Shown: positions 4,347 to 64,000 of the stretch, in pieces
Numbering within the stretch: the first letter of the stretch is position 1
Layout of the letters: every line of letters starts with the position of its first letter
Source: Streptomyces formicae
Lineage (GTDB): Bacteria; Actinomycetota; Actinomycetes; Streptomycetales; Streptomycetaceae
Direction: 5' to 3'
DNA length: 64,000 nt
NCBI RefSeq assembly: GCF_002556545.1
Contig: NZ_CP022685.1
Span: 8,534,001 to 8,598,000 of the forward strand
Notes under the pieces: generated by a model
Told to the model about the DNA's origin: nothing
Seen by the model: only the letters and a program-made list of their open reading frames with translations
Databases searched by the model: none
Position numbers and translations under genes: made by a program

Positions 4347-7300
4347 GAGCCCATCGCCATCATCGGGATGAGCTGCCGCTACCCCGGTGGCGTCACCTCG
4401 CCGGAAGACCTCTGGCGCCTCGTCGCGGACGGCGGGGACGCCGTGGTGGAGTTCCCCGCCGACCGCGGCTGGGACACCGAAACCCTGCACGACCCCGACC
4501 CGGAGCACGCGGGCACCTCCATCACCCGGCACGGCGGATTCCTCCAGGGAGCGACGGAGTTCGACCCGGCGTTCTTCGGCGTCAGCCCGCGCGAGGCCGC
4601 CGCCATGGACCCCCAGCAGCGCCTGCTCCTGGAGACCTCCTGGGAGGCGTTCGAACGCGCGGGCATCGACCCGGCGCAGGCCAGGGACTCCAGAACCGGC
4701 GTGTTCGCGGGCGTCATGTACAACGACTACGCGACACGCCTGCCGCAGGCCCCCGAAGGGTTCGAGGGCTACCTCGCCAACGGCAGCGCGGGCAGCATCG
4801 CCTCCGGCCGCATCGCCTACACCCTCGGCCTGGTCGGCCCCGCCGTGACGGTGGACACCGCCTGCTCCTCGTCGCTGGTGGCCCTGCACCTGGCGATGGT
4901 GGCGCTCCGCCGCGACGAATGCTCCCTCGCGCTCGCGGGCGGCGCCACGTTCATGTCCACGCCCCGCACGTTCGTCGAGTACAGCAGGCAGCGCGCGCTG
5001 TCCGTGGACGGCCGCTGCAAGGCGTTCTCCGACGGCGCCGACGGCACCGGATGGGGCGAAGGCGTCGGCATGCTCCTGGTGGAGCGGCTCTCCGACGCCC
5101 GCCGCAACGGCCACCCGATCCTCGCGATCGTCCGCGGTTCCGCCGTGAACCAGGACGGCGCGTCCCACGGCCTGACCGCGCCCAACGGCCCCTCCCAACA
5201 GGCCGTGATCACCCAGGCGTTGGCGAGCGCGAGCCTCACCGCGGCCGACGTGGACGCCGTCGAGGCGCACGGCACCGGCACCACCCTCGGCGACCCCATC
5301 GAGGCGCAGGCCCTCATCGCCACGTACGGCCAGGACAGGACCGCGGACCGGCCCCTGTGGCTGGGCTCGCTGAAGTCGAACATCGGCCACTCCCAGGCCG
5401 CGGCGGGCGTCGGCGGCATCATCAAGATGGTCATGGCGATGCGGCACGGCACGCTGCCCAAGACCCTCCACGTCGACGAGCCGAGCAGCCACGTCGACTG
5501 GTCCGCGGGCGCCGTGGAACTGCTGACCGAGGGCCGGGCGTGGCCGGAGACCGGCGAGCCGCGCCGCGTCGGCGTCTCCTCGTTCGGCGTCAGCGGCACG
5601 AACGCCCACGTCATCCTGGAACAGGGCCCCGCCGCCGACCAGGACCCAGAGCAGGCCACTGCCCCGCCCACCGCCGGTGCCACCCCGTGGGCGCTGTCCG
5701 CGATGACCCCCGACGGGCTGCGCGCCCAGGCCGACCGCCTCCTGACCGCCCTGCGCGACAGCGACGAGAGTGCCGGGAGCGGCGGCTTCGACGCGGCCGC
5801 CGTCGGCTTCTCCCTGGCCACCACGCGTGCCGTGTTCGAGCACCGCGCCGTGCTCCTCGCCGACAACGACGACAAGGCCGCCACCCTCGACCGGCTCGCC
5901 GCCCTCGCCGAGGGCCGCGGCGGTCCCGGCGTCGTCGTGGGCGAGGCCGCCACGCACCGTCTCGGCTTCCTGTTCTCCGGGCAGGGCTCGCAGCGCCTCG
6001 GCATGGGCCGTGAACTGGCCGCCCGCTTCCCGGTGTTCGCCACCGCCCTGGACGACGTCCTCGCGGAGTTCAACCCCCAGGTCCGCGAGGTGCTCTTCGG
6101 CGAGGACGCCGACGCCCTGAACGAGACCGGCGTGACACAGCCCGCGCTGTTCGCCGTCGAGGTCGCGCTCTTCCGGCTCCTCGAATCCTGGGGCGTACGC
6201 CCCGACCTGCTGGCCGGGCACTCCATCGGCGAACTCGCCGCCGCGCACGTGGCGGGCGTGTGGTCGCTCGCGGACGCCGCCAAGGTGGTCTCCGCGCGCG
6301 GCGCGCTGATGCAGGCGCTGCCCGCGGGCGGCGCGATGGTCGCCCTCCAGGCCACCGAGGCCGAGGTCGTCCCCGACCTGCCGGACGACGTGGGCATCGC
6401 CGCGGTCAACGGCCCCGAATCCGTGGTGATCTCGGGCCCCACCGCCGACGTGGAGGCCGTCGCGGAGCAGTGGCGCGATGCGGGCCGCAAGGTGAGCCGA
6501 CTGCGGGTGAGCCACGCGTTCCACTCGCCGCTGATGGACCCGATGCTCGACGACTTCCGCTCGGTCCTGGAGAGCGTTTCGTACGAGGCTCCCTCGATCC
6601 CGATCGTGTCGACGCTGATCGGCAGCCTGGCGGGCGCCGACGACCTGATGTCGCCGGAGTACTGGGTGCGCCACGTCCGCGAGGGCGTGCGGTTCCACGA
6701 CGCGGTCGCCGCGCTGCGCGAGCACGGCGTCGACGTCTTCCTGGAGGTCGGCCCCGGCGGCGTCCTGTCCGGCCTCGGACAGCTCAACGCCCCCGACGCG
6801 GCCTTCGTCCCCGTCCTGCGCGGCGACCGCCCCGAACTCGACGCGCTGACCACGGCCGTCGGCCAGCTGCACGTGCGCGGCGTCGCGGTGAACCTGGCCG
6901 CCTGCTTCGCCGAAGGTGACGCCCGACGCGTGGACCTGCCCACGTACGCCTTCCAGCGCGAGCGCTACTGGCTCGACGCCCCCGCCGACGACACGGCCAC
7001 CGAGCCCATGTCGCCGGTGGAGGCCCGGTTCTGGGAGACCGTGGAAGAGGGCGACCTCGGCGACCTCGCCCGCACGCTCGGCGTGTCGTCCGACGACCCG
7101 CTGAGCGCCGTACTGCCCCGCCTCTCCGCCTGGCGCAGGAAGCAGCGGGAGCGTTCCACGGCGGACGGCTGGCGGTACGCCGTCCAGTGGCGGCCGCTCG
7201 CCGCGGGGAACCAGCGCCTGGACGGTACGTGGCTGGTCGTGGCGCCGGTCGGTGAGGACAGGGCCGCGTGGGTGCGGGACGCCCTCACGCGCAACGGCGC

Positions 7301-63300: not shown

Positions 63301-64000
63301 CGACGCCGACATGTTCGACCCGGCCTTCTTCGGCATCTCGCCGCGCGAGGCCCTGGCCATGGACCCGCAGCAGCGACTGCTCCTGGAGACCTCCTGGGAG
63401 GCGTTCGAGCGGGCGGGCATCGACCCCAAGTCGGTGCGGGGCAGCGCGACCGGTGTGTTCGCGGGTGTCATGTACCACGACTACGCCACGCAGCTGCACG
63501 GTGCGCCCAAGAGCGTCGAGGGCTACCTCGGCACGGGCAACGCGGGCAGCGTCGCCTCCGGCCGTCTCTCGTACACCTTCGGCCTCGAAGGCCCCGCGAT
63601 GACGGTGGACACGGCGTGCTCGTCGTCCCTGGTCGCCATGCACCTGGCGGTGCGGGCGCTGCGCTCCGGCGAGTGCTCGCTGGCGCTCGCGGGCGGCGCG
63701 ACGGTCATGGCGACGCCCGGCGCGTTCGTCGACTTCAGCCGCCAGCAGGGTCTTTCGCCGGACGGCCGGTGCCGTTCGTTCTCGGACGACGCCAACGGCA
63801 CCGGCTGGGGCGAGGGCGTGGGCATGCTCGTCCTCGAGCGTCTCTCTGACGCGCGGCGCAACGGCCACCGGGTGCTCGCGGTGATCCGCGGTACGGCGGT
63901 CAACCAGGACGGCGCCTCCAACGGCCTGACCGCGCCCAACGGCCCGTCCCAGCAGCGCGTCATCCGGCAGGCCCTCGCCAACGCGGGCCTGACGGCGGCC
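48206..64000 (+). CDS. PKS4: modular type I polyketide synthase, 3'-truncated (three modules plus partial KS)
   Basis: The frame is open from ATG 48206 to the window end (5265 residues, no stop). The docking helix ([14 protein letters not shown] start) is followed by module 4.1: KS residue 34 (Cys 207), AT 566 (HAFH 750), KR 1179 (Tyr 1329), ACP Ser 1497; module 4.2: KS 1556, AT 2086, DH 2441 (His 2474, Asp 2638), KR 2893 (LDD 2980, Tyr 3037), ACP Ser 3204; module 4.3: KS 3263, AT 3796, DH 4155 (His 4188, Asp 4349), KR 4602 (LDD 4690, Tyr 4747), ACP Ser 4903; and the KS of module 4.4 from 4966 (Cys 5138), cut before its HGTG motif. All three ATs are malonyl type. Predicted output so far: A-type hydroxyl, then two conjugated double bonds. 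The start is set by the ribosome site and the docking-domain match; an in-frame ATG at 48179 would add 9 residues. Confidence 0.97.
48305..52810 (+). other. Module 4.1: KS-AT(malonyl)-KR(A-type)-ACP
   Basis: KS Cys codon 48824 with fingerprint GTNGQDY (48668-48688), AT GHSIG (50156-50170) and HAFH (50453-50464), dimerization-element segment (about 50966-51105), KR with Trp codon 52166 and Tyr codon 52190 and no LDD, ACP Ser codon 52694. Predicted A-type hydroxyl. The KS-AT linker matches those of modules 3.4 and 4.2. Confidence 0.92.
52871..57940 (+). other. Module 4.2: KS-AT(malonyl)-DH-KR(B-type)-ACP
   Basis: KS Cys codon 53387 with fingerprint GSNMQDY (53234-53254), AT HAFH 55013-55024, DH with His codon 55625, Asp codon 56117 and GYGP, KR with LDD 57143-57151 and Tyr codon 57314, ACP Ser codon 57815. 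Predicted enoyl product. Its DH-KR cassette is a near copy of that in module 3.3. The next KS has the GVMYHDY fingerprint expected after a dehydrating module. Confidence 0.92.
55502..57405 (+). repeat. DH-KR cassette, copy in module 4.2
   Basis: Partner of 35817-37720. The DH part keeps GYGP here where the module 3.3 copy has GYGQ. The two copies diverge after the KR Tyr region. Confidence 0.85.
57992..63040 (+). other. Module 4.3: KS-AT(malonyl)-DH-KR(B-type)-ACP
   Basis: KS Cys codon 58508 with fingerprint GVMYHDY (58355-58375), AT HAFH 60143-60154, DH with His codon 60767 ([10 protein letters not shown]), Asp codon 61250 and GYGP, KR with LDD 62273-62281, TGASGALGG loop and Tyr codon 62444, ACP Ser codon 62912. 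Predicted enoyl product, conjugated with that of module 4.2. Its DH and KR are not close copies of the other modules. Confidence 0.92.
63101..64000 (+). other. Module 4.4: partial KS at the window edge
   Basis: The KS begins at [16 protein letters not shown] (Asp codon 63098) and contains the active-site Cys (codon 63617, DTACSSSL). It stops before the HGTG and NIGH histidines. The fingerprint GVMYHDY (63464-63484) fits an enoyl substrate from module 4.3. The rest of the module, and any thioesterase, lies beyond 64000. Confidence 0.93.

Follow-up and report, generated by a model that had tools for sequence, protein, structure and literature searches.

Does the ketosynthase (KS) domain of a modular polyketide synthase (PKS) carry, within a few residues, a record of the β-carbon state made by the preceding module? 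The question is raised by positions 8,534,001-8,598,000 of the 9.61 Mb single-contig genome of Streptomyces formicae (NZ_CP022685.1), the 64,000-nucleotide stretch analysed here and referred to as the window. A five-gene modular PKS lies mostly inside the window, extending from approximately 8 kb before it to 16 kb after it. An initial annotation noted a seven-residue motif ahead of the Cys of each of 13 KSs, and proposed it as a useful predictor with four states: GVMY[NH]DY following dehydrating modules, GSNxQDY following A-type hydroxyls, GTNGQDY following B-type hydroxyls and GTSLQDY following a ketone module. Our analysis partly supports this proposal: its outline is sound, but its detail goes too far. 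We identify the motif with high confidence as the published selectivity loop that gatekeeps the α/β chemistry of the upstream module, and the 13 KSs here probably use it likewise.

For those who engineer assembly lines the KS is a gatekeeper, and a short motif predicting acceptance is useful, but the principle is already published, experimentally supported and partly tested, so that its novelty as a predictor does not stand. Positions 1-4 of a loop at the KS dimer interface read VMYH for enoyl and TNGQ for D-β-hydroxy intermediates (PMC11321453); a study of 739 KSs, as recounted in that paper, singled out the same four positions. The selectivity of VMYH was shown by mutagenesis in PikKS3, where the 1:2 product ratio is 148 for VMYH and 3 for TNGQ (PMC11321453). 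Hirsch et al. 2021, as cited in later papers, and Ray, Saif and Keatinge-Clay 2024 associate VMYH with KSs of families K, L and M that accept α,β-unsaturated intermediates, and PMC13347036 describes classifiers for the five upstream states used below and mutation of the same position in EryAIII KS1. A published A-type motif of the form GSN[AMV]Q was not seen, no search having been aimed at one.

Its structural location being taken from these papers, the seven-residue motif is in all likelihood the dimer-interface loop, with positions 1-4 lining the substrate tunnel and gatekeeping the upstream α/β chemistry. Met at position 2 packs on an enoyl double bond and clashes with a β-hydroxyl, Asn at the same position would set a conserved Gln at tunnel position 31 to accept a D-β-hydroxyl and, because of this gatekeeping, the loop would evolve with the upstream processing domains.

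Loop residues and upstream chemistry in 297 ketosynthases

The survey drew on 3.75 Mb of DNA: the genome that holds the window, further genomes from the same family and genus, and named genomes of GTDB. Sequences were chosen by similarity to window sequences and so lean towards polyene and polyol synthases. Among them were 583 KSs, 523 of them distinct, and 297 whose upstream module could be classified and lay in the same open reading frame (ORF), the other 226 being dropped; rows lacking the Cys, with coverage under 85%, or over 97% identical to a kept KS were excluded. Upstream states were read from domains and not from products. Ketoreductases (KRs) are typed by the LDD motif and a Trp, and were counted as dead only where the catalytic Tyr or Asn was missing, a rule fixed after the loops had been seen. 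The sample comprises 136 KSs fed by a dehydratase (DH) module, 55 by A-type and 55 by B-type KRs, 26 by ketone modules, 19 by modules with an enoylreductase (ER), and six by KRs of unclear type, the last being omitted from the five-state column, tree and predictor analyses (n = 291). It was later enlarged to 308 KSs, but the statistics rest on the 297.

Counting a KR without the catalytic Ser as dead was tried and dropped, since VMY or LMY loops come after eight such modules in which the DH has its catalytic residues; under that rule GVMYxDY followed a DH in 65 of 72 cases and these 'ketone' modules in seven. The Ser column holds Ala or Gly in eight KRs of DH-KR modules (sources G026, G035, L097, L125, L129, L149 and L153) whose DH keeps its catalytic residues and whose next loop is VMY or LMY, which suggests that these KRs are active.

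The rule for dehydrating modules held throughout this sample. Every GVMYxDY loop (90/90; 87/87 outside the window) follows a module whose DH has both catalytic residues, and of the 136 DH-fed KSs, 90 carry the motif. Where the upstream module has a KR but no ER, Met stands at position 2 in 129 of 136 KSs if the DH retains both catalytic residues, in none of ten if it has lost one (Fisher P = 2e-11, intact versus damaged) and in two of 106 if there is only a KR. The B-type state has a strong motif too: 27 of 36 GTNGQDY loops follow a B-type KR, the others following an A-type KR (4), a DH (3) or a KR of unclear type (2). GSNxQDY (n = 23) was preceded by A-type KRs in 14 cases, B-type in six and a DH in three. 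All six GSNGQDY loops follow B-type KRs, which rules out Ser versus Thr as the mark of A against B; without Gly at residue 4 the motif has an A-type KR upstream in 14 of 17, and the discriminator between A and B is residue 4 of the seven, Gly or not Gly.

Neither ketone nor methylene has a general motif, and a clean four-state code is not supported. The 26 ketone-fed KSs carry 20 different loops, GTSLQDY occurring in just one of them; as a general ketone mark it is rejected. One related cluster has GTSIQDY behind its ketone module. No general motif was seen among the 19 methylene-fed KSs. GQMHNDY is common to seven of these, each from a differently labelled source (L107, L115, L125, L126, L129, G026 and G035). 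In an earlier sample, GVTYQDY was carried by four classified KSs (L132, L136, L147 and G009), all following DH modules without a recognised KR.

Might the pattern reflect chance, or selective reading within a single cluster? In the window the ketone rule rests on one case and the A-type rule on four, but the 87 concordant DH cases elsewhere leave this account with next to no probability; chance is refuted for the DH and B-type rules but still applies to GTSLQDY if read as a mark of ketones in general.

The initial annotation had suggested that association with upstream KR type and DH activity be checked, and on domain-read states it is found. Columns 131, 132, 130 and 133 of a 429-column KS alignment, which form the loop, rank first to fourth among 386 variable columns for upstream state, with 0.86, 0.70, 0.70 and 0.51 bits above shuffled labels respectively (label entropy 1.99; n = 291). 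When the label is instead what the KS's own module makes, no column exceeds 0.19 bits (n = 253); the top one is again in the loop, which we put down to runs of like modules; the loop thus tracks the upstream product far more than that of its own module. Used as a predictor, the four columns are right for 222 of 291 KSs over five states (0.76) with rows of the same source label left out, which is short of a strict hold-out, since one named genome can supply several differently labelled loci and related clusters were retained. By state the hits are 129/136 for DH, 39/55 for B, 38/55 for A, 8/26 for ketone and 8/19 for ER. One hundred random sets of four other variable columns reached 0.48 on average and 0.60 at best, and always guessing DH gives 0.47.

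Several observations weigh against the loop as a specific reader of upstream chemistry. Met at position 2 also occurs in seven of the 26 ketone-fed and eight of the 19 methylene-fed loops. In a KS tree from which the loop region was omitted, A and B types are contrasted by only two supported independent pairs, so that this contrast is not phylogenetically secured; the same holds for ketone versus alcohol (4 pairs) and for ER versus DH (4 pairs, about 3 with and 1 against). According to PMC13347036, introducing MYH into the methylene-accepting EryAIII KS1 lowered the yield of the wanted enoyl-derived product by 13% relative to wild type. Three sets of modules taken up below also disagree: KS 2.2 of the window, M4 of a related cluster and KS3 in two others. 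Finally, nearest neighbour on the KS minus columns 119-162 is right for 227 of 291, matching the loop. Part of the association is therefore common descent of the KS with its upstream module: the loop is the densest place of the signal, and common descent carries about as much information.

It might then be supposed that common descent is all there is, the KS and upstream domains migrating as a unit and the loop travelling along as a marker that plays no part in selectivity. The success of the rest of the KS favours this, as does the mismatch at KS 2.2, conserved in five clusters including the window. We consider it very improbable, because the four loop columns outperform all 100 random sets drawn from elsewhere, because Met is absent in all ten cases where a DH is present but has lost a catalytic residue, and because VMYH mutagenesis alters selectivity in PikKS3. 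The tree also opposes it: 13 supported independent pairs contrast DH with alcohol, and over random pairings Met changed in parallel in eight, against expectation in none and not at all in five (median P 0.008, range 0.008-0.07).

The loops of the window

A loader (AT-ACP, acyltransferase and acyl carrier protein) and 17 modules make up the synthase: M1-M2 in the first gene, M3-M6 (2.1-2.4) in the second, M7-M11 (3.1-3.5) in the third, M12-M15 (4.1-4.4) in the fourth and M16-M17 in the fifth. Pfam matches were obtained for 11 of the 17 modules and the remainder were found with hidden Markov models built from those. By the LDD and Trp residues, the KRs of M1, M3, M4, M5, M7 and M12 are A-type and those of M2, M6, M8, M9, M11 and M13-M17 are B-type. 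In alignment the DHs of M2, M13 and M14 have both His and Asp, the residues being read and activity predicted, and those of M6, M8 and M10 lack the catalytic His. The loop, DH and KR positions that follow are on the forward (+) strand of the window.

The 13 loops and their positions are as the initial annotation gave them, with 51 residues from the loop Gly to the KS Cys (52 in KS 4.1). GVMYNDY is the loop of KS 2.1 (M3; 4710-4730) after M2, whose DH (1465-2325) has its catalytic residues and is without the neighbouring ER of several relatives. GVMYHDY is found in KS 4.3 (M14; 58355-58375) and KS 4.4 (M15; 63464-63484), each following a DH with both catalytic residues. These loops share four residues, place and upstream DH with published VMYH-type KSs, differing only by Asn at position 4 in KS 2.1 (numbering from PMC11321453).

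A-type KRs precede GSNAQDY in KS 2.3 (M5; 13785-13805), GSNVQDY in KS 2.4 (M6; 18366-18386) and GSNMQDY in both KS 3.2 (M8; 28449-28469) and KS 4.2 (M13; 53234-53254). GTNGQDY, with TNGQ at positions 1-4, is present five times. It follows a B-type KR without an active DH in KS 3.1 (M7; 23928-23948, after M6), KS 3.3 (M9; 33555-33575, after M8) and KS 4.1 (M12; 48668-48688, after M11), like the published G-TNGQ-DY type, and this is probably the case too for KS 3.4 (M10; 38679-38699), if the DH of M9 is dead. KS 2.2 (M4; 9273-9293) differs, having TNGQ after M3, whose KR (7773-8411) lacks LDD, has the Trp and is A-type. The supposition that the DHs of 2.4 (M6; 20655-21500) and 3.2 (M8; 30723-31565) are dead was borne out, His being replaced by Tyr in the former and His by Phe and Asp by Glu in the latter. 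GTSLQDY belongs to KS 3.5 (M11; 43800-43820), following M10 (3.4), where the DH (40968-41828) is dead by His to Ser and the KR (42318-42944) by Tyr to His and Asn to Ser, with one Gly of the nucleotide-binding loop also missing; because this KR is dead, the module leaves a ketone. Domain maps and alignments thus agree with the states originally assigned, that of module 3.4 included. Three of the 13 upstream assignments (2.1, 3.1 and 4.1) span two proteins and assume that the genes act in order.

The count of 11 fitting KSs out of 13 is right if the M9 DH is active, and becomes 12 if it is dead. Two further loops have no place in the scheme: GAMTMDY in the M1 KS, which the loader feeds, and GASPQSY in the M2 KS, which has an A-type KR upstream. 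Across the whole synthase 16 KSs have an upstream module, and the five loops of [VL]MY type each follow one of the six modules with both DH catalytic residues (P = 0.0014, all placements equally likely).

Exceptions, silent domains and flavofungin-type relatives

Two KSs, 2.2 and 3.4, had been set aside as exceptions; the former is genuine and the latter probably reflects a dead DH. The DH of 3.3 (M9; 35829-36686) keeps His and Asp, with YGP changed to YGQ and LPF to LPS. Ser occupies a position that is Phe or Tyr in all 129 DHs preceding Met loops; the DH at the like place of cluster G403 has Val there and is followed by GTNGQDY. Together these make it likely that the M9 DH is silent, which would explain KS 3.4. 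No clear excess of degeneracy was seen overall in the seven DHs that have catalytic residues and precede non-Met loops: six have one or two changes in conserved columns, like many before Met loops, and the seventh, in L101, has five. The four DHs with His and Asp that precede G[ST]N[GA]QDY all break one of three near-invariant positions, compared with three of 129, a contrast that is only suggestive, being picked post hoc and omitting three of the seven (GSNDQDY twice, GAIYYDY once) in which none is broken. One of the disagreements mentioned above is M4 of G403, which is of DH-KR type and keeps both catalytic residues of its DH but has GSNAQDY in the next KS.

Another disagreement concerns the KS of M3 (KS3), which has VMYNDY in the window, in G403, G176, L109 and G126, and in S. 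flavofungini. M2 is DH-KR in the window, whereas the other five have ER sequence there, and VMYNDY after DH-ER-KR appeared to be counter-evidence. This was revised in part, since the ER is broken in three of them: in S. flavofungini (L239-L240) the nucleotide motif is GAAGDVG rather than the AAAGGVG of intact ERs, with further changes, and in G403 (L203-L207) and L109 large parts are missing. In G176 (L224-L225) and G126 (L219-L223) the ER looks intact, and either it is silent or the loop is wrong there. The ER is absent from G208 and L218, where the M2 DH aligns only partly and the KS3 loop is GLVYNDY. Across this PKS family the M2 ER has decayed to differing degrees: the window has none, three relatives have a damaged or partly deleted one, and in two it is apparently intact. 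The pairing of M2 with M3 crosses proteins in all of these clusters and rests on gene order.

Flavofungin structures bear on both matters. The C28=C29 bond of flavofungins IV, VI and VII is an E alkene (PMC5431850). This is where M2 would leave an alkene, and the loop seems a better guide here than domain content. The strain of that paper is ZQ4BG, S. flavofungini having been reported earlier as a flavofungin producer; we assume that the sequenced S. flavofungini type strain makes flavofungins, and module order in its draft assembly follows from similarity. Its partial cluster and the window share an A-type KR in M1, a DH in M2, the loops VMYNDY, GTNGQDY and GSNAQDY in KS3, KS4 and KS5, and a DH-KR module followed by GLMYHDY. 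The window's synthase differs in having 17 modules, no ER remnant in M2 and the ketone module M10. It has methylmalonyl-type ATs in M1 and the last module, and flavofungins IV, VI and VII carry methyls at C-14 and C-30 (PMC5431850). The locus thus resembles flavofungin-type synthases, from which we infer the product class. In a polyene-polyol macrolactone of flavofungin type the loop would mark five conjugated double bonds (the last from the final module and read by no KS), one further alkene, a series of alcohols and a single ketone. Roflamycoin was considered as an alternative product; judged by title, no paper on its gene cluster was among the five matches listed, nor one on a flavofungin cluster among 15 of 22 matches. 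What the locus contributes is a family whose motif is consistent with a known product though annotation of the M2 ER alone would mislead.

The mismatch at KS 2.2, where GTNGQDY comes after M3 with its A-type KR, is shared by four related clusters: G403, G176, L109 (S. coffeae) and S. flavofungini. In flavofungin IV the 25,27 relation is syn (PMC5431850), which fits two KRs of the same type in M3 and M4 and places the mismatch in the KS loop rather than in the KR call. One explanation is that the loop reads beyond the β-carbon, a γ,δ double bond beside the β-hydroxyl overriding the A-type signal. The C-27 alcohol does adjoin the C28=C29 alkene in flavofungins IV, VI and VII (PMC5431850), C25 and C27 are syn, as would follow from two KRs of one type, and yet the KS4 and KS5 loops of S. 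flavofungini differ; in G208, M3 is B-type and GTNGQDY fits. Such sensing rests on one site in one family, and an older swap of the M3 reductive domains, A for B with the KS unchanged, would give the same picture; we regard it as doubtful. Rather less doubtful, and still tentative, is the broader proposal that the loop is a truer guide than domain content to what a module actually makes and so unmasks silent DHs and ERs, with γ,δ sensing suggested besides by the KS4 mismatch. The conserved KS4 exception could show what else the loop senses, and the loop could be used to flag silent DH and ER domains.

Other features of the synthase

A separate 252-residue ORF following the synthase (79,836-80,594) is taken, on position and sequence, for a type II thioesterase. 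In the first gene a long stretch ahead of the loader AT (at 16915 of locus L001) is unmatched by five domain models; what is left of a KS may lie there, or the gene may in fact begin further on. The AT of 2.4 (M6; 19602-20534) has the signature GHSQG with YAPHS, a pair also found in M5 of S. flavofungini, unlike the ATs around it, which are malonyl-type (HAFHS) or methylmalonyl-type (YASHS).

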